Positions 2,590-39,480 of a stretch of 64,000 nucleotides of DNA are shown here, piece by piece (position 1 is the first letter of the stretch; every line of letters begins with the position of its first letter). The notes under the pieces were generated by a model. The model ran no database searches, had not been told where the DNA came from, and worked only from the letters and a program-made list of their open reading frames with translations. Source of the DNA: an uncultured bacterium (GTDB lineage Bacteria > Verrucomicrobiota > Kiritimatiellia > CAIKKV01 > CAITUY01). The stretch lies in assembly GCA_903895695.1 (NCBI GenBank), contig CAITUY010000001.1, positions 1 to 64,000 of the forward strand, read 5' to 3'. The position numbers were made by a program, and so were the translations under genes.

Positions 2590-5500
2590 ATGCGCACGGG
2601 CCAACAGATGGGCGGATGGAAGCTTGGGGTCGGGCGAGCTTTGCTCCTGGCTGTCCTGTGTATCATCCCGGCGACCCTTCGTGCCGATGTCCCCTACGCG
2701 CCGGTAATGATCTATTACGATCAGACGAACGCAGTCGATAATGGCGGCAAAATCGGGGTTAATGCCCTGCGTAATCTGCTGGGCCACTTCAAGACCACGG
2801 TCGAGTTTACGAATGTTGCCTCCTACACGACGGGGCAACTCAAACGTTACATGGCGGTGTTCTACATCGGCTCCGCGTTTGACCCGACGAATATTCCGGG
2901 CGCGTTTCTGAACGATGTCATGGCGTCGACCACCACGGTCGTGTGGTTGCACTACAATCTCTGGCAATTGCCCAACGTCACCTCGGGCGCCAACCGCTTG
3001 GGCATCCACTACACCGATGGTAACGTTGCGAATGGCTACAGCGCCGTTTACTATAAGAGCAACGGCCTCGCCAAGATTGATGACTTGGTGCAGATCTCGG
3101 TGTCCAATTTCGTCCTGAAACTGGCTATCGCAACCAACACGGCCAAGCATTTGACCTCGCCATATGCCGTGCGGGCGTCGAACTTCTGGTACATCGCCGA
3201 CGATCCGCTCACAACCCAGCAGTTGGGCGACCGCAGTCTCGTGCTCGCCGATCTGCTGCACGACATACTGGGGTCGGGAACGAATTTCAGCCATCGCGGT
3301 CTGGCCCGCATCGAGGATATCGCGCCGGCCTTGACCGACACGAGTGCCGTGGCGGCCGTCAGCACGGCTTTGCGCGGTCTGGGCATAAACGCGACGTTTG
3401 GCATCATTCCGCGCTACCGGGATCCGCAAGGAACATACACGAACCAAGGCTATCCGGCCGACCTGAGCATGTCGGATAATCGTGGGTTCCTGCGGGTCCT
3501 GTGCGGCGTCCAGCGCGACGGCGGCGAGTTCACGGACCACGGCTACACGCACGAGAGCGGCGATGCCGAGAGCGGCAGCGGCTACGAGTTTTGGTGTACG
3601 AACACGGCCTCACCACTCGCCTACGACTCCTGGGACTGGTGTGCCGGACGGGTGACGAATGGCCTGTCGGAACTGTTGAGGTCAGCCTTTCCGGTCACCT
3701 GCTGGGAGACGGTCCACTACGAGGCGGCGTTGGACGACTACCCCGCTTTTTCCGAGACGTATCGTTACTCGCACGAACGGGCGCGCGTGTTTGCGGCTTT
3801 CGCGGACGGCGTGAGCAAGTCCAATTTGAGCGCCGTGTCGGCGACCAACCCGAGCTACAGCGACCAGTGGTTTCCCTACGTCATCCAAAAGAGTTGTTAC
3901 GGCAATACCTTCCTGCCGGAGAATATCGACCGCTTTTCCACATCCGGTACGGACGGCAACGGCATGGCTCTGTCCGTCTCCAATAAGATTCTCTATGCCA
4001 AGCGGCTGAGTGTCGTGCGTGACGCGGTGGTTGGATTCTACTTTCATCCCCAGTATGGCGTGGCGAATCTCACGAACATCGTGCGGCAAGTCGCGAGCGT
4101 GGGTTACACCTTCGTCTCCGACCTCGCGCTCTCCCGGGACGAACCGGTGGCCCTCTACACGAATGCCGCCTGGGCGGCCAGCAATACGAATCGTATCTTC
4201 AAGACGGCCACGAATCTCACCGCTGATCTAGTCGTGGGCGACGCCGGCGGCAGCAACCGGGTGACGATAACGAACGGGATTGCGGTCGCGAACGAGGAGG
4301 CACTGCTGGGCCTGCAAACGGCCTCGCGCTCCAACCTCGTCACTGTGGCCAACCCGGGCTCGGCGTGGACGAGCCGGCGCATCCTCTCCGTGGGCCGGCA
4401 CGGGCCGGCGAACGCCGTCACGGTGCGGAATGGCGGCAGCGTTCGGGCGTTGGAGACCGTTCTGGGCTTCTATCCCGACTCGTCCGGCAATACCGCGACC
4501 GTCAGCGATGCCACCTCGGTGTGGAGTAATCGCTATGGGTTCACGATCGGATACGGGTCCGCCTCGAACAGGCTGACTGTGTCGGCGGGCGCCCGCGTCT
4601 CGGGCGAATACGGCGAGCTCGGCGCCACGACCAATGCGAACAGCAATGTCGTCACGATCACGGACTCCGGTTCGGTCTGGAGCAACAGCCAGTACGTGGT
4701 CGTCGGCAATGCGGGCGCCGCGAATACTTTGACGATCCAGTCGTCCGGGCTGGTCAGCAGCGCGTTCGGCCTGATCGGCGCGCGCTCGACGGCCGCCTCA
4801 AATGCCGTTCAGGTGACCGGACTTGGCGCGTGCTGGACGAACACCGCCGGACTCTTCGTCGGCATCGACGCTGGCCACAACAGCCTGGTGGTTTCGAACG
4901 GTGGTACGGTCGCGTGCGGGAGTGCCGTGGTGGGCGATTTCGACAAAGGGGTCGGGAACCGGATCGACGTTCAGGGCGGGAACGCGACTTTCCGGGTACA
5001 GCAAGACTTGACGATCGGGGGCGACGGTTCGAGTAACGTCGTGCATGTCGGCCAGGGTGGCGTTGCGCAGTGCGGCTCGATCACCGTGGGCCGGGACGCG
5101 CCGGGGCCGGGCAACGAACTCATCGTCGACGGGGGGAGCGTCACGGCGACCGGCGCCGTCCAAGTGTTCGTCGGTCGCCTCACCCTGACCAACGGCTCTC
5201 TGCAAGTCGATACGGTCGTCCTGGCGTCGGGCAGCACACTGAGCCTGGCCCCAGGATTCGACTGGCGGGCCGGCGCCCTGACGCTGCCCGGCAACTTCAG
5301 TTATTCCGGTACCAATGCCGGCCCCGGTCTCTTGCATGCGACGTTATCTTTCGCCACCGGTGGAGTGCATCGGCTGGAGTTGGATGCCCAGGACCGCGGC
5401 GCCAGTTTGGCCGGGTTTTCCGACAACCGCGCGCTGGGAGCCCTGGACGTCGAAAGCGCGGCGACGGTCACCAACGTCTGCTATGTCTGGGCGTTGTCCG

Positions 5501-5853
5501 GCGCGGGCGTGCTGACGATCAGCCCCGGCGCCCGCGTTTACTATGTGAGCACGAATGCCTGGCACGGTGCGGTCGTCCTGCAGGGGAGCGGCGCTTTCGT
5601 GCAGGTCCCCGTGCGACTCGACGCCCTGACGCGGCCGACGGCGTCGACCGTCCAGTTGGCGTGGCCGTCGGCGTCGGGGCTGACCTTCAATGTGGAGTGG
5701 GCCGCCCGGCTGTTCCCGGCGTCGCCGTTCCTAAACGCCACCAGTCTCCTCAGCGGATCCACCACGCAGACTTGGACCGACTTCGGCGACACGAACCGGC
5801 CGCCGCCCAGTAGCGTCACACAGCGGTTTTACCGCATCAACGCCGCTCCGTGA
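2590..5853 (+). CDS. Large secreted DUF2334/polysaccharide-deacetylase-like protein with autotransporter-passenger-like repeats
   Basis: The 1087-residue protein opens with a signal peptide (hydrophobic LLLAVLCIIPATLRA, near residues 18-32). The first ~540 residues include HRGLARIEDIAPALTD and a TDHGYTHESGD segment, resembling DUF2334-like deacetylase folds. From about residue 555 to 900 there are tandem modules of ~50 residues with the pattern 'GxxGxxNxLTIxxGGxV', as in beta-helical passenger domains. The end has VQLAWPSASGLTFNVEW and RFYRI, a module common in Verrucomicrobia-type exported proteins. No membrane beta-barrel follows, so it is not a classical autotransporter. ATG 2590 lacks a clear ribosome site; M7 at 2608 is an alternative. 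Substrate unknown; probably acts at the cell surface. It overlaps the convergent gene by 17 bases. Confidence 0.75.
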   Translation: MRTGQQMGGWKLGVGRALLLAVLCIIPATLRADVPYAPVMIYYDQTNAVDNGGKIGVNALRNLLGHFKTTVEFTNVASYTTGQLKRYMAVFYIGSAFDPTNIPGAFLNDVMASTTTVVWLHYNLWQLPNVTSGANRLGIHYTDGNVANGYSAVYYKSNGLAKIDDLVQISVSNFVLKLAIATNTAKHLTSPYAVRASNFWYIADDPLTTQQLGDRSLVLADLLHDILGSGTNFSHRGLARIEDIAPALTDTSAVAAVSTALRGLGINATFGIIPRYRDPQGTYTNQGYPADLSMSDNRGFLRVLCGVQRDGGEFTDHGYTHESGDAESGSGYEFWCTNTASPLAYDSWDWCAGRVTNGLSELLRSAFPVTCWETVHYEAALDDYPAFSETYRYSHERARVFAAFADGVSKSNLSAVSATNPSYSDQWFPYVIQKSCYGNTFLPENIDRFSTSGTDGNGMALSVSNKILYAKRLSVVRDAVVGFYFHPQYGVANLTNIVRQVASVGYTFVSDLALSRDEPVALYTNAAWAASNTNRIFKTATNLTADLVVGDAGGSNRVTITNGIAVANEEALLGLQTASRSNLVTVANPGSAWTSRRILSVGRHGPANAVTVRNGGSVRALETVLGFYPDSSGNTATVSDATSVWSNRYGFTIGYGSASNRLTVSAGARVSGEYGELGATTNANSNVVTITDSGSVWSNSQYVVVGNAGAANTLTIQSSGLVSSAFGLIGARSTAASNAVQVTGLGACWTNTAGLFVGIDAGHNSLVVSNGGTVACGSAVVGDFDKGVGNRIDVQGGNATFRVQQDLTIGGDGSSNVVHVGQGGVAQCGSITVGRDAPGPGNELIVDGGSVTATGAVQVFVGRLTLTNGSLQVDTVVLASGSTLSLAPGFDWRAGALTLPGNFSYSGTNAGPGLLHATLSFATGGVHRLELDAQDRGASLAGFSDNRALGALDVESAATVTNVCYVWALSGAGVLTISPGARVYYVSTNAWHGAVVLQGSGAFVQVPVRLDALTRPTASTVQLAWPSASGLTFNVEWAARLFPASPFLNATSLLSGSTTQTWTDFGDTNRPPPSSVTQRFYRINAAP

Positions 5854-8800
5854 GGCCTTCCTCCGCCTTCAATACGAGGGTGCGCCATTGCTTTCGGGAG
5901 AGCGCCTCATCGAGTTCCAGCAACTCCCTGTAACGCGCTGCCGGCACGATGGCCGGCCCCCTCAGTGCGTGGGCCTCCACGACCACGGTGCGGCCCTCCT
6001 TGCGCTCTTCGACACGCGCCTGAGCGCTCAGGTCGAGTCCGGCCCCGGCTGCATCTTGCACGCGGGTGTCCGCCGGCAGGTATTCCACCCGATAGCCTGC
6101 GGGAATGGCGATTTCCAGCGTGAGCTTCTTTTCGTATCGGTTGTAAAGCAACAGCGGATTCGCGCGGGTGTCGGCCTTTACGTCGAGCACGGTATCGAGA
6201 AACTCCGGGAAGGTGCCGTACAGATAGCCTGCGTCAGCCACCGCATAACGCGGCAGGCGCACGGCAAACTCGATCACCCCGGGATAAACGGCGAAGTCCG
6301 TCGTCAAGGCGCCGTTTGTTTCCGCACCTTGCGATAGCAAGGCGATCAACTCCTGGTGATAGCGACGCCGCTCCTCGGGAGTCATCTCGGCGAAACGTTT
6401 GTGTTCCGTCCCGAAGGCGGTTCCGTACAGGCATTGCCGTTTCTTGAGCAGCACATCGCCGCTGGGCTCGATCGTAAGCCAATAGCGGGCTTCGGCGACG
6501 TCCGGCCTGGCTGGAACTACTTCCGCGATGGCGCCCGAGGGCAGGAACAGACCCAAGGCGCCGGCATGAGGCGTGGCGCCGAGGGCCGCGTATTGATCGG
6601 TGTCGTTCAAGTAGATCCAGCGCTCCGTTTTGTCTGACGCGGCGTGGTCGCGCACTCGCACGAGCACCTGGCCGAACACACCCGCGGAGGGCAGGGCGCC
6701 CACGCGCGCGGCCAGTTCGGCGATCGCCGGCGTGGACGAGGCCAGAACGAATTCGGGGTCGAACCCGGCGGCATCGAGCATGGCGTAGAACAGGACCGCG
6801 CGGTCGGTCGTGTTGCCATAGCCGTCGCGGAGCGTCTGATCCGCAGGCGTGATCCGGTCCTGCGGCATGTCCGCAAGGCCCGGTTCGGTCTCGCGTACGC
6901 GCAGGGCGATGAAATCGCGGATCGCCGTCAGTTTGGCCGGATCGCTCTTCTCTGCGGCCGTGAGGCGCCGGGCCTCGCGGGCGGCCGTGCGCCCCTGCGC
7001 CGCCGCCGTCTTGAAGGCCTTCGTCAGCCTCCCGGCATACATCTTCCAGTCGCCGGCCGAGGCGAAGACGGTCGGATTGAAACTCCACCAGGGCGGCAGC
7101 ATATCTTCGCGTTTGGCCGGCGCCACGTCCTCGGCGGTCCATTCGACCTGAACGCGTTGCTTCACCGAGTTGGTGACGCACGTCAGGCGCAGACCGTCGC
7201 AGTTGCCGGTTGCCAGTCGCATGAGGCCCACCGGCGCCGTAATGCGGACGGTTTTGCGTTTCACCGGGTCCAGGGAGCGGAACGACTCATAGGCGGAAAA
7301 GAACGGGCGGTTCGTGCATGCCCGGGTATAGCGGTATTCGATCGTGCACCCGTTATCCACAGCCGGCAGGCTGGCCACCAGGATTTTGCCGGCGGGATAG
7401 CGACCCGCCGTGCCAACCCAGGGGGCATCCATGAGGTTGGTCTCCTTGGCGCTGATCTCCCGGCGCTTGCCGTCGGCCGACGTAACAACCGCCTGTTCCA
7501 ACCGGACCTCCTCCCATCCGGCATTGAAGCCAATCTTGAGCTCGGAGTTTTGCTTTTTGCCGGCATAGGTGAGGATTTTTTTCCGGACGGAACGCGTCTC
7601 GGTCCAGCGATGGGCATCGGCCACGTCATACGCGACCGTTTCGTCGAGCACCTGCACGTCGACGGGGTTCGCCTCGGCGGCCGCGGCGGGCAGTGCGAAA
7701 ATTGGAATTTCCCGCGCGGTGTGCTCCATTTTGGTCAGTGTGTCTTTGAGATTCCGGTACTCGGTCGGCGCGAATTCCACGGCCTTCAGCCGGAAATCCA
7801 GCGACGCCTCCAACAGGGTGTTGGTTTGGCGCAATTCGGAGCGCCAGAGGATGGAGGCATCCTCGAACGGCTCAGGCCGGGGCAGGGAAACGGCCGGCCC
7901 CACGCTATCGTCGAGATCCAAGGCGATGTGTTCCTGAACGCCGCAGGCCGTCTCGGTTTGGAGCGGATATTTGCGTTCCTGCAATCCCGTCTGGCCGACG
8001 ATGTGGTTGACGAGCCCGAGCCGGGTACCGAGGACCGGCAGGGGAAGCATGAGCGAGCGGCCATCGTCGATGAACACGTTGTCTGCCTCGTAAGCGATGC
8101 GCACGGTCAGCGTCGTGGAGACATCGGTCATGTCTGTCGGGCTGAACGCGACCTCGGTCACATGCGCGCCGGGCACGGCGCGTTCCGCGACCGTTTCGAC
8201 AAAACGCCGTCGGTCTTCCGGCTTGATCCGCACGAACCAGTCGCGATAGGTGTTGTCGTTAATGCCCTCGAAGCGCAGCACTGTCACGGCTTCCAGCCTT
8301 CGATCCGCGTTGACTCGGCCGCGTGTGTCGATGCGCATGAGGTTGGACTCAGCCGGGTCGACCGGCGAGGTCCGGAGCGGGTCGCCTTCGGGCGTGGCCA
8401 CCAGGTAACTCTTGTCGTCCAGATAGGCGGGCAGCAGTTGGGTGGTGTTCTCGTCGGTCGGATCCATGAGCGTGTAGGTTCCGGCCGCTTCCCGGACGGC
8501 CACGATGGCATGGTTGAAATACGGCTGCGCCACTTCGGGATCCTTCTTGGCGCCCGTGTCGATCAGTGTCGGGAACGCCTCGAATCCGGCCACGCACAGC
8601 ATGGCCACCAGCAGGGCGGCTTTGTCGCGGCACACGCCGTGTTGGGCGTCGAAGGTGTCCTTGGCGTCGTGCGGCTCATAGCCGGGCGCTTCCGCTTCCA
8701 CCGTAATGCCCATGTAGCGGATGTGCTGCGACACGAAAGCGAACAGCGCTTCGATCTTCCGGCGGCGGTCGTCAAGGCCCTGGGTGAGCGCTTCGACTTT

Positions 8801-19518: not shown

Positions 19519-20445
19519 TCATTTGGATACAGCCGCGATCATGGCGTGGACGATGAAATCCATCATCTCGATGTACGTGCCTGTATTCGGCACGCCGCCA
19601 GGCATGATCGGCAGTTTGACCAGCGTCGCGCCGGTGTCTTTGGCGATGAGCGCCGGGACCTTTTCCGGGAACTGCGGTTCGCGCACGACGATGGGGACGT
19701 GATCCGCCTTAATCTCTGCAATCAACTCCTCAATGTGCCGGGGCGTCGGATCGATGCCCGGCTTCAACTCGATCGTGCCGACGTAATTCAGGCCGAAGCG
19801 CGCCGCGAAATACGGCCAATGCTCGTGATACGAGACGAACTTAACACCCTTGAGTACCACGGCCAGGCGCTGCCACTCGGCAATCTTCGCGTCAAGCTTC
19901 GCGAGATAGGCGTCGCGGTTGCGCGTGAAATCCGCTTCATACTGCGGTGCGGTGGCAACGAACGCGGCGTAAATGTTCTTCACCGTCGTCTTCGCCAGCA
20001 CCGGGTCGAGCATATAGTGCGGATTACCGTAGGGATGCACGTCACCTTCCGAATGGTCGGTGGATTTCGGCACATCCATCGGCAGGATGCCTTGCGAACA
20101 GTCCACGTAGCCCGGCTTACCCAGTTGGATGCGCGGATTCTTGCTCGCTTCAAGCAGCGCAGGCAGAAAGGCGTGCTCGCAGTCAAACCCGACGAGCAGG
20201 ACCAAGTCGGCGCGGTTCATTCTGGGAACGAAACTCGGCTTCATCGGAACGCCGTGCGTGTCCTCAATGCCGGTCGCCAGGCTGAACACGTCGACATGGT
20301 CGCCGCCGACGTTGCGCGCGAGGTCGGCCAGGTCCGTGAGCGTGGCTACCACATGGACGGTCGCCGCGTTGGCGGATGACGTTACTACGAAGAGGGCGGC
20401 CGCAAACAGGACCGCCGACAAGAGGCGAAATAGATTTGATTTCAT
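19519..20445 (-). CDS. znuA: ZnuA/TroA-type periplasmic metal-binding protein
   Basis: The 308-residue product has a signal peptide (LLSAVLFAAALFVVTSSANA) and an ABC cluster A-1 binding fold. Likely metal ligands are His in IEDTHGVPMKP, the HPYGNPHYMLDP region, YHEHWPYFAARF and REPQFPEK. The His-rich loop typical of enterobacterial ZnuA is absent. ATG 20445 has AAAGGA upstream. It delivers zinc (or manganese) to the ZnuBC pair encoded immediately downstream. It follows the porin gene by 20 bases. Confidence 0.88.
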   Translation of the reverse strand: MKSNLFRLLSAVLFAAALFVVTSSANAATVHVVATLTDLADLARNVGGDHVDVFSLATGIEDTHGVPMKPSFVPRMNRADLVLLVGFDCEHAFLPALLEASKNPRIQLGKPGYVDCSQGILPMDVPKSTDHSEGDVHPYGNPHYMLDPVLAKTTVKNIYAAFVATAPQYEADFTRNRDAYLAKLDAKIAEWQRLAVVLKGVKFVSYHEHWPYFAARFGLNYVGTIELKPGIDPTPRHIEELIAEIKADHVPIVVREPQFPEKVPALIAKDTGATLVKLPIMPGGVPNTGTYIEMMDFIVHAMIAAVSK

Positions 20446-20465
20446 GATGATTGTTCCTTTCAGGT

Positions 20466-21797
20466 TCAGCGTTGCTGCCAACCGTGCGAGTGTGCGCCGA
20501 TGATCCAGGCCCATTGCAGGTAGATGGCATCGTCGGGTTTCAAGTCGGACTCGGCATTGTGGTCGGTGTGCGTGTATTGCAGCCGCAGTTGGTTCCAGTG
20601 ACTCAAGGCAAATGTCGTGAACGGCGAATACGCGGTCGTTTGATCGCTGTGATTTTGGGCGCTCTGGACCCAGTCGAATAGGAAGCCCGCGCTCCACTGC
20701 CGGCTCCATTTGTAGCTCATGTAGGAGTACAAACCGAACGAACCGACATTCTCGTCGAACTCGTCGCCGTTCTTGGACAGTCCATCGGGGTCGACGAGAT
20801 AGCGGTTGTCGCTGTGCAGCACCTCCGTGCCCCACGTGAAGCTTCGGAACTGATTGTCCTGGAGTGGAACGTAGTTCAACTTCACGTCGATGCCTTCCAG
20901 TCGGCGTTCTTTCTCGGTCAGCGTGCTAACGCCGTCGGGTTGTACCAGCGCGCCGCCGCGGTCTTCGGTTTTGGGATTGGCGAGCCCCGAGACGCCCGTT
21001 TCGAGCTGCCAGTTGGGCGTCAAGTCGAAATAGGTCGAGAGCCTTCCCCAGAAGTTCAACCCGTCGAAGCCACGGTAGGTGCCGGGGTTGTTCGGGTTGG
21101 GGCTGTCGCCACCGAAGGAATCGCCGACACCGACCGTCAGGCTGACGTAATGGTCAACCGGCGCCAGCCAGTTGGCCTGGATGCCATCGCTTCGTGACTC
21201 GCCGCCGATATATTGATCCAATACCAGCGGGCGATTGACGAACGGCAACTCGTGGTCGTGGATGTATCCCAGCCGCCCGAACTCGCCGAAGAACCTACCC
21301 GCGGTCAGCGACAGGTTTCCCGCCAGTGAAGTCGTCTGCAAGGCCGCTTCTTCGATCCCCAGGTTCGCCTCGCCGGTAGCGCTATCGGCGGAAGCATTAA
21401 TCACGGCCCACCCCTTGGCGAACGGGTCCACCGCCGCGGCGACATTCATTTCCACCGAGCGTTGGAACACGTCGAACCCGCCGGGTCGGTCGCTGCCGGT
21501 CTCGTCCGACCCTTTGCTGCGATAGGAGAAGAGCGTTTCTCCGACCAGACCGATGGACGGGTTGAACTCACTGGGCAGAACCTTTCTCTGCGCCTCGGCG
21601 AGTCGATCGACTTTGTCGTTTAAGCGCTCCAACTGGCCCTGCGTCACCGCACCAGTTGACTCGGACGTTGTTGGGGGCGCGACCTGCGATTGGGTGAGCG
21701 CTTTCACCGTGTTGGTTGGCGTGCTCTCCGCAGCCGCGAGGCTGATGAGAGGTGTCAAGATGGCGGTAGCCACTAGCAAACGGAATGATCTTTTCAC
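20466..21797 (-). CDS. Outer-membrane porin-like protein of the zinc-type operon
   Basis: The 443-residue product has a signal peptide and a short coiled coil (QGQLERLNDKVDRLAEAQRK) before a beta-barrel region with many aromatic strands, for example SFTWGTEVLHSDNRYL and FALSHWNQLRLQYTHTDHN. The last strand ends AIYLQWAWIIGAHSHGWQQR. A His/Asp-rich SDQTT and THTDHN region could contact metal. The coiled coil plus barrel architecture resembles OprO/OprP or OprB-type porins of PVC bacteria. Its place upstream of znuA suggests a route for metal across the outer membrane. That specificity is inferred. Confidence 0.75.
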   Translation of the reverse strand: MKRSFRLLVATAILTPLISLAAAESTPTNTVKALTQSQVAPPTTSESTGAVTQGQLERLNDKVDRLAEAQRKVLPSEFNPSIGLVGETLFSYRSKGSDETGSDRPGGFDVFQRSVEMNVAAAVDPFAKGWAVINASADSATGEANLGIEEAALQTTSLAGNLSLTAGRFFGEFGRLGYIHDHELPFVNRPLVLDQYIGGESRSDGIQANWLAPVDHYVSLTVGVGDSFGGDSPNPNNPGTYRGFDGLNFWGRLSTYFDLTPNWQLETGVSGLANPKTEDRGGALVQPDGVSTLTEKERRLEGIDVKLNYVPLQDNQFRSFTWGTEVLHSDNRYLVDPDGLSKNGDEFDENVGSFGLYSYMSYKWSRQWSAGFLFDWVQSAQNHSDQTTAYSPFTTFALSHWNQLRLQYTHTDHNAESDLKPDDAIYLQWAWIIGAHSHGWQQR

Positions 21798-24180: not shown

Positions 24181-24849
24181 TCAAATCAGTTTCCACGTTA
24201 GCCAAGTCCCGAGAGCGATCAGCCCCCAGCCGCTCAGCATCGCCCCGGCAGTAGCAAAGCGCCGCACCGCTGCGAAACGTGTGCCGGCTGCCAGGCAGGC
24301 GGTGACGGCCAGAAGCGGCAGACCGAACCCCAGGGCATAGGCCAACGCATACAGAATTGGATGTCCGTGCGTGGTAGCCAAGGGGATCAGCACCCCGAAG
24401 AACAGGCCTGCTGTTGCCGGGCAGAACGACAGGGCGAGCAGCAGGCCGAGGCCGAACAGGCGAGGGGCGGATTGGGCGCCCGACTTCAACCACCCCTCGG
24501 CCGCGCTGCCGGTGCGAGTGCCGCGGGACGCCGCAAACACCCCGGTCTGAAGGATGCCTGCCACGATGAGCAAGGGCGGCAAGAACGGGCGCAGCAGATC
24601 CGGCAGGACAGTGGAGAAAAGCCGTGCCTGCATCAGGCTGCCGCCGATCAGCGTTGCCGCGATCACGAGCGCCACAACCATGCCCGCAAGGAGCGCGCCG
24701 GCCCGCCACAGCGACCGGCCCGAATCGGGCGCCAGCACCAGCAGCAAGGCTCCGGCCAGGGTGGAGAGGGGGCACGGGTGCAAGGCGGCCACGATTCCTA
24801 GGCTGAAGGCTCCGCATATACCCCAATCAGTCATGACGATTGCGCTCAT
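24181..24849 (-). CDS. ArsG/CcdA-like membrane permease with paired Cys
   Basis: The 222-residue product has six membrane helices and two conserved Cys, C26 in HPCPLST and C143 in SFCPATAG, matching the CcdA/DsbD family. The HPCPL motif is close to ArsG-type arsenical efflux permeases, which have a PCPLAT segment. Its upstream neighbour carries an ArsF-like domain, supporting that branch. Thiol transfer across the membrane is the alternative. Start 24849 was chosen near the first helix; 24834 is possible. A palindromic repeat lies between it and the upstream gene. Confidence 0.72.
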   Translation of the reverse strand: MSAIVMTDWGICGAFSLGIVAALHPCPLSTLAGALLLVLAPDSGRSLWRAGALLAGMVVALVIAATLIGGSLMQARLFSTVLPDLLRPFLPPLLIVAGILQTGVFAASRGTRTGSAAEGWLKSGAQSAPRLFGLGLLLALSFCPATAGLFFGVLIPLATTHGHPILYALAYALGFGLPLLAVTACLAAGTRFAAVRRFATAGAMLSGWGLIALGTWLTWKLI

Positions 24850-24898
24850 CTTGAAATTGATCGCTGCGTGTAGACGTGTCCACGAGTATGTCCTCGGC

Positions 24899-24950
24899 GT
24901 GGCACGGGCGTCCCGCCCGTAGCCGGCAACGGGCAAGATGCCCGTGCCAC
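24899..24950. repeat. Dispersed palindromic repeat with 22-base arms
   Basis: The arms begin GTGGCACGGGC and end GCCCGTGCCAC, with 19 of 22 positions paired around an 8-base loop. The element lies between the 551-residue ArsF-fusion gene and the ArsG-like gene. Such GTGGCACGGGC palindromes are frequently dispersed in PVC-type genomes, to my knowledge. Confidence 0.7.
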
Positions 24951-24951
24951 G

Positions 24952-26607
24952 TTAGAGGGTCTCCTGTAACATGCCGCGGATGTTGTCGCGCAGCATGCCG
25001 ACAAAGGCCGCGTCATCCGCCCATAAACTCCACACTTTCTGCGTCAACATGCGGATGTCGTGCGGTCGGCCGCGGTCGTATCGCACCAACCCGATAGTGC
25101 TGGAATAGAGCCCGAGCCGATCCTTGATCTCGCGATTGGCGGGCGCGGCAAAAGCAATCTGGCGATACGCCAGCAGGCCCGTGCGTTGTTGCGCGGTGAA
25201 GTCGGATTCGATCGTCTGGCGGCAAAGCCTGCCCATGGCCTCGCAGGCATCGCAGGTTTCCTGCGCGTGGAAGAGACAGACGAACAATCGACAGTCGTCG
25301 TTGGTCACATTCAAGGACTTGGCCAACGCCACCTCGAAGCCTGTGGGCGCGGGACCGAAAACAGGCAGGACGCGCCTTACCGCAACCAGCAGGCTGGCGG
25401 CGGCCAGAAGAAGCAGCGCCGTCTTCAGCACCGTCCGGCCGATCCAGTTCCCCCGCGCCGTCTTGTCGAGCACCTCCGCCGCCTGGCGGCGGGCGACCGC
25501 GTTAACCGAGAACTCCGGCTTTTCGTCGAGCATCAGGATCTCGCCGACGAACGCGTACAGGGTCGTTGTGCAGGCATCGGCCGGGGCTGGCGTCCGATGG
25601 CAGGCGAGGAGTCCGGCCTCGACCAGGCGATTGGCCTCGCCAACCTGCGGACTGGCGCAACAGCCCCCCGCGTCCCGCGGATCGCTGCCGGTCAGAATGA
25701 AGTACGGCTCCTGACCTGTGACGAGTCGGCGGAGCCGCTGCCGGGTTTCCGCGGAACTCGTCCGGAGCGCAGTCAACGCTTCTTTCGGAAGCGGGGCGTC
25801 GCGGTCAACAGTAGCTGCGGCATCCCGACTCGCCTTCGCGAGCTGCGACTCGTCCAGCAGGCACCCGGCACCCAGCGTCCGGTAGGCGGAGGGGTAGTTG
25901 ACCGGACGTTTCGTTTCCGCCACCACCGTCGACGGTACCGGTAGAAGGCGATCCTTCTGTTCCAGGTCCTTTACAAGTTGCTTCGGAATCGTTGTGCAGA
26001 TTCCGCGGCGCAGGATCGAACCGTCTGACAACACCAGGAGACTGAATGGTCCGGGGTAGAACACTACGTTCAGCGGCTCGCCGGGCAGCATGGGGCCAAA
26101 GGTGTGTGCGGCGAGGCGATCGGCATCCTGCTCGAACGTGTTGCAGTTAAACGGGAGCGGATCGGTCTCCAGGCGGCGTATCAACTCTTCATCGCCCGCG
26201 GTCACGGTCAGCAGCCCCTGGTAAGGCGGCAAGGTATGAAGGCCGCCGGTTTTCTCGCACACCCGCATGGTGCCGACGATCAGGTGATGATCGTCATCCA
26301 TGACGGCCAGGGCAGCGCCGACATAAGTTGTGCTGCGGCCGGTCTCGAAGCAGGCGCCGACCTTGCCCTTGAGCGCGGTAATCAGCACTTCCTGGAAGTC
26401 GGTCGTCGGGCGGAGGCAGATGGCAAACGCGCCCGACTCCGCGAGGACTCCCTGCATCGCCAGCCGGCGCTCCCACCGGCAACGCACGTTGATGCACCCC
26501 CGCTTGGGCAGGCGCGCAAAGGCGTCGCGAACGCCGGCTTCGTCCGGGTGGTCCATGGTCAGGCAATGCGTCATGAACTGTTCCGGGTCGAGTGAGCCTG
26601 CAGTCAT
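24952..26607 (-). CDS. ArsF-like thiol-domain protein fused to a novel Cys-rich N-terminal region
   Basis: The 551-residue protein has three parts. Residues 1-240 are soluble and unrecognised, with scattered Cys (residues 15, 38, 43, 64, 86, 117, 155). Residues ~300-350 hold a Cys-rich segment GSDPRDAGGCCASPQVGEA. A membrane helix (~394-416) precedes a C-terminal thioredoxin-like domain with LFHAQETCDACEAMGRLC (C452/C455), the hallmark of ArsF-type proteins that accompany ArsG. ArsEFG handle aromatic arsenicals in Shewanella, as I recall. It lies three bases after the desulfurase gene and upstream of the ArsG-like permease. The N-terminal function is unknown. Confidence 0.75.
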   Translation of the reverse strand: MTAGSLDPEQFMTHCLTMDHPDEAGVRDAFARLPKRGCINVRCRWERRLAMQGVLAESGAFAICLRPTTDFQEVLITALKGKVGACFETGRSTTYVGAALAVMDDDHHLIVGTMRVCEKTGGLHTLPPYQGLLTVTAGDEELIRRLETDPLPFNCNTFEQDADRLAAHTFGPMLPGEPLNVVFYPGPFSLLVLSDGSILRRGICTTIPKQLVKDLEQKDRLLPVPSTVVAETKRPVNYPSAYRTLGAGCLLDESQLAKASRDAAATVDRDAPLPKEALTALRTSSAETRQRLRRLVTGQEPYFILTGSDPRDAGGCCASPQVGEANRLVEAGLLACHRTPAPADACTTTLYAFVGEILMLDEKPEFSVNAVARRQAAEVLDKTARGNWIGRTVLKTALLLLAAASLLVAVRRVLPVFGPAPTGFEVALAKSLNVTNDDCRLFVCLFHAQETCDACEAMGRLCRQTIESDFTAQQRTGLLAYRQIAFAAPANREIKDRLGLYSSTIGLVRYDRGRPHDIRMLTQKVWSLWADDAAFVGMLRDNIRGMLQETL

Positions 26608-26610
26608 GTG

Positions 26611-27753
26611 TTATCCCCTGTAGCCCGCCTGGCGTCGGACCGTTTCCACCAGCACCCTCGCGAATGCGGCTACGGCTTCCGGGCGGCTTGTCCTGCCGAA
26701 CGAAATGCGCACGGTGCCCAGCGCTTCGTTGGGCGACCGGCCCAGGGCGAGGATCGCCCGGGACGGCTCCGGGCGGTCTTCGCTGCAGGCCGATCCGGTG
26801 GCAACCGCGAAGCCCTGCACCGCAAGGTCAGCCACGAGCGCGTGGCCGTCCAGGCCGGGGAAACTCAAGGACAGGAATCCCGGGGCGCTTCTTGCCGGCT
26901 CGCCGTTGACCAGAAAGCGCACTCCCGAACGTTCGAGTTCACCCCGCACGACGCTGCTTAGTTCGCGCAAGCGTTTGGTCTCGGTCGCCATGGATGCCAG
27001 CGCTTGTTCAAGGGCGGCCACGGTCCCGGCAATTCCGGGCAGATTCTCCGTGCCCGATCGCAGTCCGCCTTCTTGCGCTCCTCCGTCCAGCAGCGGGTCC
27101 ACCGTGGGGAACCGCGTGAAGACGCCGCCGCAACCGCGGGGCCCGCCGAATTTGTGAGCGGAGAACGTGTAGAAATCGCAAGCGATCGTGGCGAGGTTCA
27201 CGGGGATGTGCCCAAGCGCCTGGGCGCCATCGATGTGAAGCAGGACACCCCGGCGCTCGCAGACCGCCGCGATCGCGCCAACATCCTGAACGATTCCGGT
27301 CTCGCTCGCCACATGCGAACAACACACCAGGCGGGTAGCGGGCTTGATGGCGGCGGCGAGCGCGGGCAGGCCGATCCGTCCGCTGGAATCCAGAGGCAGG
27401 ACGTCCATGCGGTCGGCATAGCGGCGGCAGGCATTCCAGGCGGAGGCGTGAACGTCCGCGGCAACCAGCACGCGGCCCGTGGCCGCCGCGCGCATCACGC
27501 CATGCACGACCCAGTTGTTCGCTTCCGTGGCCCCTGACGTGAAGACCAAGCGTCCCCCCGTGAAGCCGCAGCGCGCGGCGAACGCGCCGCGGAGCCGCTC
27601 CAGTTCGGCCCGGGCACCGGCGCCGGGCCTGTGTGCCGACGATGGATTGCCGAACCATGTGCGCGCTGCCTCAAGTTGGGCGGACAGCGCCTCTTCGAAA
27701 GGCGGAGCCGCGGCGGCGTAGTCGAAGTAGCGATCAAGGCAGTCAGAGTTCAT
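26611..27753 (-). CDS. Cysteine desulfurase (NifS/IscS family, aminotransferase class V)
   Basis: The 380-residue PLP enzyme has the Schiff-base Lys201 in SAHKFGGPRG, the PLP-binding His/Asp segments SGATEANNW and LLHIDGAQALG, and the active-site Cys323 in ATGSACSEDRPEPS. The short loop and VASETG in place of VNNEIG separate it from housekeeping IscS. It frees sulfur (or selenium) from cysteine as a persulfide. No IscU, SufU or Fe-S genes adjoin it. It overlaps the regulator gene by 11 bases and precedes the ArsF-fusion gene by three, so it probably serves this local operon. Confidence 0.92.
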   Translation of the reverse strand: MNSDCLDRYFDYAAAAPPFEEALSAQLEAARTWFGNPSSAHRPGAGARAELERLRGAFAARCGFTGGRLVFTSGATEANNWVVHGVMRAAATGRVLVAADVHASAWNACRRYADRMDVLPLDSSGRIGLPALAAAIKPATRLVCCSHVASETGIVQDVGAIAAVCERRGVLLHIDGAQALGHIPVNLATIACDFYTFSAHKFGGPRGCGGVFTRFPTVDPLLDGGAQEGGLRSGTENLPGIAGTVAALEQALASMATETKRLRELSSVVRGELERSGVRFLVNGEPARSAPGFLSLSFPGLDGHALVADLAVQGFAVATGSACSEDRPEPSRAILALGRSPNEALGTVRISFGRTSRPEAVAAFARVLVETVRRQAGYRG

Positions 27754-28198
27754 CAGAAAGCCCTGCCTGCTTGCCCGGGGCGCGGCGCGATTTCCCGCGC
27801 CGGCTGGAGAGGCGGGGGGTGGATGGGCGCCTGGCCACTGTGCGGGAGGCGGCGATTCCCAGCAGGTCGTCCACCGCGTCCCGATAGAGGCGCAGGGTCG
27901 CGATCCAGCGGGCCATGCAGGTCTTCCCGCCCGGCGTCAAGGCGTAGCGTCGTTTGGCAGGCCCGCTGGCGGCCAATTCCCAGGTTGAGGTGACGAACCC
28001 TTTCTTCTCCATGCTCTTCAGAAGACGGTAGACGCCGGTGATGTCCGGCCCGTGGTCGCGGAACATCGTCATCGCCGCCAGTCGCTGCACGATGACGTAA
28101 CCGTGGAGCGGCTCGTCCGCCAGCACCGTCATCACGGCCGGCTGGATCAGCCGCGCCAGCGTCTTTCCCGAGCAGGGGCATTCGTTCAGGTTCGTCAT
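27743..28198 (-). CDS. PadR-family transcriptional regulator with an N-terminal CPC motif
   Basis: The 151-residue product starts at ATG 28198 behind AAGGAGA. It carries a PadR winged-helix domain with LADEPLHGYVIVQRLAAM, ITGVYRLLKSMEKKGFV and a GPAKRRYALTPGG wing. The N-terminal NECPCSGKTL places two Cys (C7 and C9) before the domain, which could sense a thiophilic metal or metalloid or oxidation. The C-terminal ~40 residues are basic and low in complexity and may come from a repeat. It overlaps the desulfurase gene, and is the likely regulator of this operon via the inverted repeat at 29120-29144. Confidence 0.85.
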   Translation of the reverse strand: MTNLNECPCSGKTLARLIQPAVMTVLADEPLHGYVIVQRLAAMTMFRDHGPDITGVYRLLKSMEKKGFVTSTWELAASGPAKRRYALTPGGKTCMARWIATLRLYRDAVDDLLGIAASRTVARRPSTPRLSSRRGKSRRAPGKQAGLSDEL

Positions 28199-28218
28199 GG
28201 GAGTCTCCTTGGACGGCA

Positions 28219-29043
28219 TCAGGGTGGTTCAACTTCGCAGTTACAGCCGCCGGCCGGGGCCTTCATGAGCGGCTCCATCACGCGCACGAAGAACAGCGAG
28301 GCGGCCGCGCCGCCGAGCAGGGGGGCCAGAACGTATACGTGCAGGAAGCCGCCGACACGATCGGGAAAGGCGGCGTCGCCCCACCCGGCGGCCCACGCGA
28401 CCAGGCGGGGACCCAGATCGCGCGCGGGATTCAGTCCGGCCTGAGTCAGCGGGGCGATGAGGCAGATGATCGAGGCCACGGTAAGTCCGACGAAGACCGG
28501 CGCCAGTGTGCCATCCGGCCGGCCGACATTACAGCCTTCGGTCAGCGCGAAGACCATCAGGACCAGCAGGAAGGCGCCGAAACCCTCGGCGCCCATGGCC
28601 AGGGGAAGCGAAACCACCGCTGGGGTTCCCGGGCTCGGATAGTATTCGCCGAACATCATGCCGGTTTGCACGGAGGCCGGCGTGCCGCGTACGATGCCGT
28701 GGGCGCTTTCGTAGGCCGCGATGGATGGCGCGAAGAGCGCATACACGACCAACCCCGCCAGGGCAGCCCCGGCCAACTGGGCGGCGAAATAGACCGGCAT
28801 CTTCCGAGCGGACATGCGCCCGCTCAGCGTCATGGCCAGGGTGACCGCGGGGTTGAGATGCGCGCAGGACAGATGCCGTGTCGCGTAGATGGCCAGCGTC
28901 ACGCCGATACCCCATGTCAAGGCCACCTGGAATAGGCCGTGGTGCGCGCCGAACAGCACGGATACCGCGACCGAACCGCAGCCGAACAACACGAGCATGA
29001 ACGTCCCCAACGCCTCGCCGACCAGTTCTCGTCTCCAAGTCAT
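28219..29043 (-). CDS. Aquaglyceroporin (MIP family) with a C-terminal Cys-x-Cys tail
   Basis: The 274-residue channel has both NPA boxes, HLNPAVTLA (residues 63-71) and GLNPARDLGPR (204-212), with Asp209 after the Arg as in glycerol-type channels. Six helices are apparent. The C-terminus GGCNCEVEPP adds C267 and C269, an unusual CxC that may bind a metalloid. Aquaglyceroporins pass arsenite as As(OH)3, and AqpS sits in an arsenic operon in Sinorhizobium. ATG 29043 was preferred to a longer start upstream. It is the first gene of the minus-strand operon. Confidence 0.9.
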   Translation of the reverse strand: MTWRRELVGEALGTFMLVLFGCGSVAVSVLFGAHHGLFQVALTWGIGVTLAIYATRHLSCAHLNPAVTLAMTLSGRMSARKMPVYFAAQLAGAALAGLVVYALFAPSIAAYESAHGIVRGTPASVQTGMMFGEYYPSPGTPAVVSLPLAMGAEGFGAFLLVLMVFALTEGCNVGRPDGTLAPVFVGLTVASIICLIAPLTQAGLNPARDLGPRLVAWAAGWGDAAFPDRVGGFLHVYVLAPLLGGAAASLFFVRVMEPLMKAPAGGCNCEVEPP

Positions 29044-29119
29044 CTGTTGCCCCTGTTCGCGAGCGGCGCGCACGGTCCGCGCGGCCCGCACGGGGCGGCG
29101 AGGAATAGGCGAAACGCCA

Positions 29120-29144
29120 CTATAAGACTATCTCCTATAGACTA
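29120..29144. promoter_or_regulatory. Operator-like inverted repeat and promoter region between aquaporin and URO-D genes
   Basis: The sequence CTATAAGACTA and CTATAGACTA forms a near-direct repeat 15 bases apart, and TATAAGA with TCCTATA forms an inverted repeat around 5 bases. AT-rich sequence is rare in this GC-rich region. The spot lies 77 bases upstream of the aquaporin start and 131 bases upstream of the divergent URO-D gene. It is a plausible PadR binding site and/or -10 element. Confidence 0.55.
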
Positions 29145-29274
29145 GCCGGGCGACCGAGTGCCGTCAAGGGGCGACGCGCCGCGATAGCGGCAGTCGCCCG
29201 TTGACACGCTGCGTCATTCGAAGTAGGTTCGCCCCACGATTGTTCGTCGATCTCATCCCGCTGAGTGCTGTTCC

Positions 29275-30411
29275 ATGACTAACAAACAACGTGTTCACGC
29301 GGCGCTTGAAGGCCGGCCGGTCGACCGCTTCCCGGTCACCTCGCTGTACAATCAGCTCTACCAGGATGATCACTTCAGCGAACTCACCGGCCTGCCGGAC
29401 TGGCGCCGGCAGGAATGGGCGGCGATGTCGCCTGAGCGGCATGTGGCGCTTTTCCGCCGCATGCACGAAGCCGCGCCGTTCGAACTACTTCAGCCGCACG
29501 GCGCGCCTTCACGGACCTGGCGCGAACGCCAGGAATTCGTGGAGCAGGACGGCCATGGCTACCGGCACGACAGAGAGACTCATGAACGGATTCAACTGGA
29601 TGTGGCGACCGCGAGCGGCCATGCCTCCGACTATCATGCCAATGAGACACGCTACGTGTTCACGCGCGAGGACATCGATCGGCAGCTTCCCCGGCCGCAG
29701 CCGGGCCATGCGCAGGACCGCGGGGGGCTCGAATACATTGATGCCGTCGTGCGCGAGTTTGGGCGTGAGGAGTTCATCATCTCCGGCGGGGTTGTCGGCA
29801 CGCTGTACCTGTGCGGCCACCACGTGGGTCAGACGAACCTTTTCGCGATGCTCATCGAGGAGCCGGAACTGGTCGAGGCGCTCTGCGAGCGGATCACGGA
29901 ATGCAATCTTGCCGAAATCCGCCGCCTCGCCACTGCCGGCGGTGACGCCGGCTACATTGACGATGCCACCGCTACCAGCGATATGATCTCGCCGGCCATG
30001 TACGAGCGTTTCAGCCTGCCGTACATGCAAGCCATGGTCGCCGAGATCCATCGGCTCGGGCACAAGGCGATCGTGATCTATTTCGGAGGCGTCATGGACC
30101 GGCTGGAGCTCATCGCCGCCACTGGGGCCGACGGCTTTTCGTACGAGGCCAGCATGAAGGGTTTCGTCAACGACACGGCCGAAATCGCCCGTCGCATCGG
30201 CGGCCGCACGACGTTCTTCAGCAACATCGATCCCGTGGCCGTGCTGCAGAACGGAACGGACGCAGGACTGGCGGCGGAGATCCGGCGCCAGGTCGAGGCC
30301 GGCCGCCGTGCCCGCGGTTTCATCCTCAGCACCGCCAGCCCGATCACGCCCGGCACCCCGCTGGCGCGGGTGCGGAAGTTCCTGGAACTCGGGCGTATCC
30401 CGGTTCTCTAG
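29275..30411 (+). CDS. URO-D family methyltransferase-like protein
   Basis: The 378-residue product matches the uroporphyrinogen decarboxylase (URO-D)/MtaA/CmuA superfamily. The start MTNKQRVHAALEGRPVDRFPV, the GVVGTLYL region, AIVIYFGG and TFFSNIDPVAVLQNGT fit the corrinoid-methyltransferase branch better than haem-pathway HemE, whose N-terminal residues differ. It has no corrinoid protein beside it. It is transcribed divergently from the aquaglyceroporin operon over the operator-like repeat, so it may move methyl groups to or from a thiol, corrinoid or metalloid. Substrate unknown. Confidence 0.8.
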   Translation: MTNKQRVHAALEGRPVDRFPVTSLYNQLYQDDHFSELTGLPDWRRQEWAAMSPERHVALFRRMHEAAPFELLQPHGAPSRTWRERQEFVEQDGHGYRHDRETHERIQLDVATASGHASDYHANETRYVFTREDIDRQLPRPQPGHAQDRGGLEYIDAVVREFGREEFIISGGVVGTLYLCGHHVGQTNLFAMLIEEPELVEALCERITECNLAEIRRLATAGGDAGYIDDATATSDMISPAMYERFSLPYMQAMVAEIHRLGHKAIVIYFGGVMDRLELIAATGADGFSYEASMKGFVNDTAEIARRIGGRTTFFSNIDPVAVLQNGTDAGLAAEIRRQVEAGRRARGFILSTASPITPGTPLARVRKFLELGRIPVL

Positions 30412-38040: not shown

Positions 38041-38891
38041 AACGCCTGCTCGAGATACTCCAGGCGGCGACCGAGTACCTCGCGGCTCGCGGAGTTGAGA
38101 ACGCGCGCCTCGTCACCGAGCAGTTGATGAGCCACGTGCTGGAGTGCCCGCGCCTGCAACTGTACGTTCGCTTCGAGTCGCTTCTAACCGAGCCGCAACT
38201 GGAGGCCATGCGCCGCGGCATGAAGCGCCTGGCCGCGGGGGAACCGCTTCAATACGTGGTGGGCGACACGGCGTTCATGGGGCACCTCTTCAAGACCGAC
38301 CGGCGGGCGCTCATCCCGCGGCCGGATACCGAGCCGTTGGTCGAGGCGGTGCTCGCCTGCGAGCCGCTCTGGGCGCGAGCCCAGCCGGCCATCGTGGAGG
38401 TCGGGACCGGCAGCGGCTGCATCGCGATCAGCCTGGCCTTGGCCCGGCCGGCGGCCTACACCGCGATCGACGTGAGCCCCGAAGCCCTAGCCCTGGCCCG
38501 CGAGAACGCCGATCGCCTGCAGGTCGCCGACCGCCTGGCCTTCCAGGAGGGCGATTTGCTCGCGGGACTGGGCGCGGCTAGCGTCGACGCCGTGGTCGCC
38601 AACCTGCCCTATATCCGGACTGCCGACCTCGCCGCGCTGCCCCGCCACATTCGCGATTTCGAGCCGGCACTGGCGCTCGACGGCGGTGTGGACGGGCTGG
38701 ACTGCATCCGGCGCCTGGCCGGCCAGGCGCCGGATGCGTTGCGCGCGGACGGCTGGCTGTTCCTGGAGATCGGGTTCGATCAGGGCGCCGCCGTGCGCGA
38801 CTGCCTGGGCGAACTCGGTTATGCCGGCGTGACCGTGCGCCTCGACGCGGGGGGGCGCGATCGCGTCGTGTCCGCCCGCAGGCCCGCGTAG
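38037..38891 (+). CDS. prmC: Release factor glutamine methyltransferase
   Basis: The 284-residue protein begins at GTG 38037 inside the prfA stop. It has the N-terminal helical domain and the SAM motif VEVGTGSGCIAISLAL, with VANLPYI at the catalytic motif (NLPY rather than the usual NPPY). PrmC methylates the GGQ glutamine of release factors. The substitution of Pro by Leu occurs in some PVC sequences, I believe; activity is likely kept because N and PY are retained. Confidence 0.93.
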   Translation: MKRLLEILQAATEYLAARGVENARLVTEQLMSHVLECPRLQLYVRFESLLTEPQLEAMRRGMKRLAAGEPLQYVVGDTAFMGHLFKTDRRALIPRPDTEPLVEAVLACEPLWARAQPAIVEVGTGSGCIAISLALARPAAYTAIDVSPEALALARENADRLQVADRLAFQEGDLLAGLGAASVDAVVANLPYIRTADLAALPRHIRDFEPALALDGGVDGLDCIRRLAGQAPDALRADGWLFLEIGFDQGAAVRDCLGELGYAGVTVRLDAGGRDRVVSARRPA

Positions 38892-38970
38892 CCGGAGTGC
38901 GCGCCACGCCGCTTGAGTGCGGCAGCCGGCAGGTGTATGCTGTTCTTGGAACAAGGAAGCGGAGGCGAAC

Positions 38971-39480
38971 ATGATTTTCCTCGATCTAGTGAAAGAGCGC
39001 TCCAGCATCCGGGCGTACGAGACCAGACCGGTACCCGAAGCCACGCTGATGCAGGTGCTTGAAGCCGCACGGTGGGCGCCGTCGGCCGCCAATCGACAGC
39101 CGTGGCATCTTGTTTTGGTGCAGGATGCGGCGCAACGTCGGTCGCTGGCCGAAGCCTATCCGCGCGAATGGTTCTGGCAGGCGCCGGCCATCATCGTGGT
39201 GTGCGTCGAATCGGCGCGGGCCTGGACCCGCTCCGATGGAAAGAATTATGCCGACGTGGATGGCGCGATCGCCATGGACCACCTGACGCTGTGCGCCACC
39301 GACCTCGGTCTCGCGACCTGTTGGGTCGCGGCGTTTGACGCGGCGAAGGTGCGCGGCGTGCTGGCGCTGCCGACCGGCGTGGACCCCCTGGCGATGACGC
39401 CGATCGGTTACCCCGCCGGGGCGGGCCGCGAGAAGACGCGCAAACCCATGGCCGACGTGTTACGGCGCGAACGTTGGTGA
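38971..39480 (+). CDS. Nitroreductase-family FMN oxidoreductase
   Basis: The 169-residue product matches the nitroreductase fold: LDLVKERSSIRAYETRPV at the start (Arg for FMN), AARWAPSAANRQPWHLVLV, and LATCWVAAFDAAKVRGVLALP near the C-terminus. GGAGG precedes ATG 38971. It probably reduces quinones or nitro compounds with NAD(P)H. No operon partner is close. Confidence 0.9.
   Translation: MIFLDLVKERSSIRAYETRPVPEATLMQVLEAARWAPSAANRQPWHLVLVQDAAQRRSLAEAYPREWFWQAPAIIVVCVESARAWTRSDGKNYADVDGAIAMDHLTLCATDLGLATCWVAAFDAAKVRGVLALPTGVDPLAMTPIGYPAGAGREKTRKPMADVLRRERW

Follow-up and report, generated by a model that had tools for sequence, protein, structure and literature searches.

What brings an aquaglyceroporin, a PadR regulator, a cysteine desulfurase, a fusion protein ending in an ArsF-type domain, and an ArsG-like permease together on one strand of an uncultured Kiritimatiellia genome? 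The first-pass annotation of the 64,000-nucleotide stretch that we analyzed (the window) proposed that these five genes and a divergent URO-D gene form a new metalloid or thiol system built from parts not usually combined. All six open reading frames are present (Table 1; G, C, and L numbers below denote genomes, contigs, and loci). The five minus-strand genes are tightly packed: the aquaporin and PadR genes touch at position 28219, the PadR and NifS genes overlap by 11 nt, and gaps of 3 and 102 nt separate NifS from the fusion and the fusion from the permease. Searches that paired arsenic with either PadR or a cysteine desulfurase, and thioarsenate with persulfide, found the combination undescribed in the literature covered, which lay mostly outside subscription journals. 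The operon is better called an ArsFG variant than a wholly new system. The reading that we rank as most likely, with a probability of about 0.55, is that of a self-regulated, PadR-repressed ArsFG variant, which would handle arsenic or a related thiophilic metalloid using its own NifS-derived sulfur donor.

Table 1. Features of the operon and its surroundings in window coordinates.
Feature	Position	Strand	Evidence or remark
ArsG-like polytopic permease, 222 aa	24181-24849	minus	NCBIfam NF040495, 1.6e-26, 93 bits
551-aa fusion (D1, D2, one TM helix, ArsF thioredoxin domain with CDAC)	24952-26607	minus	
ArsF-type thioredoxin domain of fusion, residues ~423-551	24955-25341	minus	NCBIfam NF040494, 53.5 bits
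Fusion domain D2, residues ~266-383	25459-25812	minus	Invariant C316, C317, C346
Fusion domain D1, residues ~37-155	26143-26499	minus	hhalign versus ArsM C-terminal domain
Cysteine desulfurase (NifS), 380 aa	26611-27753	minus	PF00266 (Aminotran_5), 7e-56
CPC-PadR regulator, C14 and C16	27743-28219	minus	PF03551, 2e-13
Aquaglyceroporin-like channel, 274 aa, two NPA motifs, C-terminal CNC	28219-29043	minus	PF00230 (MIP), 3.9e-42
Predicted PadR operator CTATAGGAGATAGTCTTATAG (CTATAGG-AGATAGT-CTTATAG), 21-bp palindrome	29120-29140	minus	Directly upstream of aquaporin
TTGAC upstream of predicted operator	29163-29167	minus	Same spacing in L010 and L047
URO-D gene	29275-30411	plus	URO-D family, 1e-35

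The first-pass annotation had described the fusion protein as an ArsF-like Cys pair behind a long, unknown Cys-rich region and had suggested structure prediction and HMM searches of its N-terminal part. The ArsF domain was borne out, and the region in front of it could be largely identified, as these searches uncovered an ArsM C-terminal domain (D1) and a novel domain (D2). Using domains defined from an alignment of 6-11 orthologues, we found that D1 matched the ArsM C-terminal domain with a probability of 99% (hhalign, E = 8e-19 over 106 columns), while BLAST comparisons gave 5e-8 and 1e-9. Positions 252-311 of the 321-position NCBIfam arsenosugar ArsM model matched the fusion orthologues of L044 and L012. 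A phylum-wide profile search from six orthologues gave weak matches of residues 69-156 to 338-403-aa frames elsewhere; those that were read are arsenite methyltransferases (L048, L049, and L055). Five more matches from Bacteroidota also read as ArsM, and one of them (L070) scored 548 bits, far above the arsenosugar ArsM cut-off. D1 thus resembles the C-terminal ~90-residue domain of arsenosugar- and arsinothricin-type ArsM, with its pattern KGKxGPC...YxG...DDDxH...VCxKT, and its C86 and C117, which are invariant in the orthologues, are both common to ArsM. In contrast to ArsM, D1 is placed N-terminally in a membrane protein, and the 551-aa fusion has no methyltransferase Pfam match and no SAM-binding or catalytic domain.

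The fusion as a single sequence had no match in the PDB. Because the D1 profile did not match any PDB sequence either, we used fold comparison. The whole-fusion AlphaFold model reached a pLDDT of 85, and a Foldseek search against the PDB placed the CmArsM structures 6cx6, 4fs8, 4rsr, and 5jx7 together with thioredoxins among the best matches, the single matches to ArsM being modest (E of about 0.007-0.012, probability 0.97-0.98). On these sequence and model comparisons, D1 is assigned as an ArsM C-terminal domain without its methyltransferase. Residues 160-258 (D1b) carry a second, weaker copy of the ArsM-type motif (E = 2e-4, probability 47%, profile versus ArsM). As D1b and D1a gave no match when compared directly, a duplication would rest on the D1b-ArsM match and a BLAST match in the same register; the second copy is likely but weak. 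Searches for the fusion on plasmids and in viral contigs returned no match.

For D2, we found no relative in Pfam, NCBIfam, or the PDB, and the profile comparison with ArsM gave 4.7%, with no secure relative. Its model is confident (pLDDT 91), and the fold matches are weak (best probability 0.51), many of them being winged-helix regulators; thus, D2 is perhaps a degenerate winged helix. The domain stands alone in G035 (L050); in G342 (L046), it is joined to ArsF in a protein that lacks D1 and is likewise preceded by NifS. A single TM helix follows at ~389-410, as judged by a hydropathy peak, and leads to the ArsF domain, whose CxxC is CDAC at residues 452-455. Residues 443-544 scored 53.5 bits against the NCBIfam ArsF model, below its curated cut-off of 60. 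Among the orthologues, L011 (63.5) and L012 (66) exceeded the cut-off, and L044 (57) fell below it. The domain is a membrane-anchored CxxC thioredoxin domain encoded just before ArsG, as expected of ArsF. Because no signal peptide was evident, D1 and D2 are probably cytosolic, with the ArsF domain outside. The joining of an ArsM C-terminal domain, a new CC domain, and ArsF in one protein is a previously unannotated architecture, and D1 shows that the ArsM C-terminal domain can occur independently of methylation. In G234 (L043, 3-2015), D1, D2, and an ArsG-type permease form one 670-aa frame without a recognizable ArsF thioredoxin domain.

The permease had been called ArsG/CcdA-like, and the NCBIfam ArsG match supports this, although its 93 bits lie below the curated cut-off of 200. 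Scores were higher in L011 (175) and L012 (144), and an ordinary ArsG reached 265 (L053). The paired membrane Cys motifs of ArsG, PCP and SFCP, are both present (HPCP and SFCP in the window), and both cysteines are kept in all aligned relatives and are common to ordinary ArsG. These two conserved membrane cysteines, which we take to resemble those of the CcdA class, together with the thioredoxin fold and CxxC of the ArsF domain, would also suit a thiol redox relay that involves no metalloid. The ArsG-like protein would then be a CcdA-like electron conduit and ArsF an outer thioredoxin, NifS and the CC domain would supply or repair persulfide thiols, and the ArsM-type domain would be a mere thiol-binding fold. 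Two neighborhoods are in keeping with such a relay: D2 adjoins ferredoxin and radical-SAM genes in G035, and the KSB1 copy (L011) follows genes without an evident arsenic role, one of them weakly similar to a cytochrome oxidase subunit. However, the relay does not account for the grouping of ArsF, ArsG, and an aquaglyceroporin with an ArsM-specific domain under a CPC regulator, and we consider it rather unlikely.

The closest known system is ArsEFG of Shewanella putrefaciens, which reportedly acts on roxarsone and nitarsone; nitroarsenicals are said to be reduced and their amino products exported. In the window, too, an ArsG-type permease is encoded after an ArsF-type thioredoxin domain. In contrast to ArsEFG, it has no separate ArsE thioredoxin, and its ArsF is not a separate protein but sits behind the ArsM C-terminal domain and D2. 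The Shewanella system is credited to Chen, Zhang and Rosen (2019) in PMC9144182. The window also differs from the ordinary ArsF-ArsG pairs of its relatives (L053, L054, and L051), which adjoin a thioredoxin, a SaoE/SO_0444-like permease, and an ArsR-like regulator; in their place, the window has NifS, PadR, and an aquaporin.

The desulfurase has the features that its earlier assignment as a class V aminotransferase-type cysteine desulfurase implies, namely, a catalytic Cys in ATGSACSEDRPEPSR (SACS loop) and a PLP-Lys in SAHKFGGPRG. It keeps these residues in common with NifS and IscS, yet it belongs to a separate clade and has no NIF or ISC genes beside it. Against the NifS model TIGR03402, the operon enzyme scored 235 bits, below the cut-off of 530.75, while the housekeeping NifS on C41 of the same genome, to which it is ~30% identical, scored 593. 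In a tree of 27 desulfurases, the eight operon copies and the same-contig paralogue of KSB1 formed one clade (99/97), and the housekeeping NifS of operon-bearing genomes fell outside it. In G139 (L045), the gene immediately upstream of the NifS-D1D2 pair (5009-6004) encodes a PP-loop protein of the ThiI/MnmA-like kind with an NFACT-R_2 domain, which points to possible partners in sulfur transfer. A KSB1 NifS of the operon clade (L142, 3-5099) follows NuoE/F- and NuoG-like genes and not a fusion gene. Both neighborhoods would fit a cassette for repairing Fe-S clusters or thio-cofactors, in which NifS rebuilds metalloid-damaged clusters on the fusion as a scaffold. Such a cassette is very unlikely, as the unit has no IscU, IscA, or SufE-like gene and neither Pfam nor NCBIfam gave a ferredoxin or scaffold match for the fusion.

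We then come to the conservation of the unit. The fusion is rare: it was found in at least 6 of 388 genomes of its own phylum and, in the phylum to which L012 belongs, in at least 1 of 345 genomes. In six of the seven readable loci (the window, G009, G342, G299, G139, and L012, a Bacteroidetes MAG), NifS immediately precedes the fusion. The remaining one, the KSB1 MAG L011, has the fusion and permease without an adjacent NifS, and its clade NifS is 16 kb away; thus, NifS may not be obligatory. Contig ends hide the position of NifS for the second copy of G342 and for G234; in the latter, contig C162 closes with a NifS of the clade, and contig C44 opens with the fusion. An ArsG gene comes after the fusion in the window, G009, G299, L011, L012, and the second copy of G342, and in G234 the two are joined in one frame. 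Because NifS, the fusion, and ArsG recur together in other families and in another phylum, their association is above chance, which agrees with the proposal that the packed minus-strand genes form one unit. The aquaporin is absent from G009, and NifS is not adjacent in L011. Across more than one phylum, a cysteine desulfurase thus goes with arsenic-type genes.

The best solved relative of the channel is Escherichia coli GlpF (1e-42, versus 6e-13 for AqpZ), consistent with its earlier description as an aquaglyceroporin with a C-terminal CxC. Alignments to GlpF (1fx8) and its W48F/F200T mutant (1ldf) fixed the filter positions, W48 of GlpF aligning to W and F200 to A; with the position that we assume for G191 in the GlpF filter, the selectivity filter would be W-I-A-R. 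An NPA pair and a putatively wide filter thus mark the protein as an aquaglyceroporin. It is 84% identical to the aquaporin of L010, its nearest relative and the only one to keep the C-terminal CNC. Aquaporins of the AqpS/GlpF type are found in ars operons. The window channel likewise lies in a metalloid-type operon and shares the filter W of GlpF; it differs in adjoining PadR, in its W-I-A-R filter, and in belonging to an operon without an arsenate reductase. In G331 (L049), an aquaporin of the window type directly follows a full arsM gene.

The regulator belongs to the PadR family (PF03551, 50.6 bits, cut-off 27). Its winged-helix domain is that of other PadR proteins, while the N-terminal CxC and the ars-type context set it apart. 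The two N-terminal cysteines noted before are indeed present as CPC, and CxC occurs in all seven homologues that keep the N terminus. No CxC-PadR in an ars-type context was described in the literature searched. Because ars operons are usually under ArsR repressors, the protein is a candidate sensor of another kind with a defined predicted operator. The palindrome upstream of the aquaporin has counterparts in the promoters of L010 and L047, GTATAAGAGATAGTCCTATAG and GTATAGGCGTTTGTCTTATAC, each with TTGAC at equal upstream spacing; this shared TTGAC was spotted by eye, as the sigma-70 scan found no promoter over threshold. The core TATARG-N7-CYTATA has a single occurrence in the window, and 100 shuffles contained none. 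It was present exactly once per genome in three whole genomes (6.3, 3.0, and 3.1 Mb), always at the operon. As the pattern was drawn from the same three sites, its uniqueness is the test and not the match itself. The palindrome is predicted to be the operator that PadR binds. G009 lacks the aquaporin and the N-terminal portion of PadR, which makes the channel dispensable there. In this natural deletion (L047, 589-837 of G009:C74), the operator is immediately followed by what remains of PadR (residues ~75-145) and by NifS.

Among the matches listed, CxC-PadR adjoins an aquaporin in four of eight loci; homologues with such a neighbor include those of L135 and L138. Other homologues adjoin a CobW-like GTPase (L136), a DsbD-like protein (L139), and a heavy-metal P-type ATPase (L140), so that the inducer may be another thiophilic metal. 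Judged by these neighborhoods, the CPC-PadR subfamily is generally associated with thiophilic metals. The same neighbors would be expected if Sb, Se, Te, Hg, Cu, or Zn were the true substrate of the machinery. Cysteine desulfurases can act on selenocysteine, which would make it a possible substrate of the operon enzyme. However, D1, ArsF, and ArsG all indicate arsenic, and a selenium-specific NifS is not supported, as the NCBIfam selenocysteine lyase model matched weakly (46.6 bits, cut-off 525). Thus, another element is improbable as the substrate. In G022 (L138, 9171-12764), CPC-PadR and the aquaporin lie beside a cluster of ferredoxin, DUF116-polyprenyl synthetase, and prenyltransferase-like genes. 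G154 (L135) has CPC-PadR, an aquaporin, and the start of a similar ferredoxin/DUF116-polyprenyl synthetase cluster, and the stand-alone D2 gene of G035 (L050) is beside the same cluster as in G022, here with a radical SAM protein added, which would suggest an isoprenoid-metalloid link.

Arsenic as the substrate is suggested by three independent homologies to arsenic families, those of the ArsM C-terminal domain, ArsF, and ArsG. It is better supported than the first-pass annotation could know because D1 was identified as an ArsM domain, the ArsF and ArsG homology holds and is stronger in the orthologues, and the aquaporin is GlpF-like. In the model that we infer for the ArsFG variant, including its substrate, sulfur transfer, and direction, binding of As(III), organic As(III), or Sb(III) to the CPC of PadR would release the operon. 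The aquaglyceroporin would let uncharged As(OH)3 equilibrate, and the cytosolic Cys sites of the fusion (C86/C117 and C316/C317/C346) would capture the metalloid. NifS might then load sulfane sulfur (persulfide) onto the fusion, by which the metalloid would be reduced, protected, or thiolated as a sulfur adduct. Last, reducing power or the adduct may cross the membrane by way of ArsG, with its CcdA-like Cys pair, and the outer CxxC of ArsF. A more specific version, which we hold doubtful, is persulfide-driven arsenic thiolation, in which NifS loads the ArsM-derived domain and a thioarsenical exits via the ArsG-type permease with redox help from ArsF. If true, enzymatic thiolation of arsenic with NifS-donated sulfur would add a new branch to arsenic biochemistry, next to methylation, reduction, and efflux. 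The role of the ArsM C-terminal domain and the part of enzyme-made persulfide sulfur in arsenic handling are two questions that can now be tested.

The genome itself encodes two Acr3 arsenite pumps and no ArsM over cut-off, and no methyltransferase lies within the operon. Methylation is thus unlikely as a partner reaction, and the operon appears to add to arsenite efflux without replacing it. The divergent URO-D gene had been considered a possible means of adding or removing methyl groups in an arsenic pathway, and its position 231 nt from the aquaporin and its likeness to MtaA/CmuA (99 bits) would fit such a role. However, the family is greatly expanded to 68 genes in this genome, and no URO-D gene lies beside the unit in L010, L012, L044, or L011, the divergent neighbor in L010 being a protein kinase by sequence. 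We therefore rejected it as part of the system; a methyl-transfer role is already largely refuted and highly improbable.

Two further clusters were noted in this genome. On contig C96 (L149), acr3 (38143-39135) and an ArsC-type phosphatase fused to a methyltransferase form a canonical ars cluster, which adjoins genes for a corrinoid protein resembling HgcA (motif NVWCAAGK; CdhD, 3.8e-8) and for an HgcB-like ferredoxin. An association of mercury-methylation genes with ars genes has been described (PMC7438021). In the window, a ZnuA-type zinc-binding protein (7e-52) follows a putative outer-membrane protein on the minus strand (19519-21797); these form a zinc-uptake cluster of their own, 3-4 kb away from the operon.
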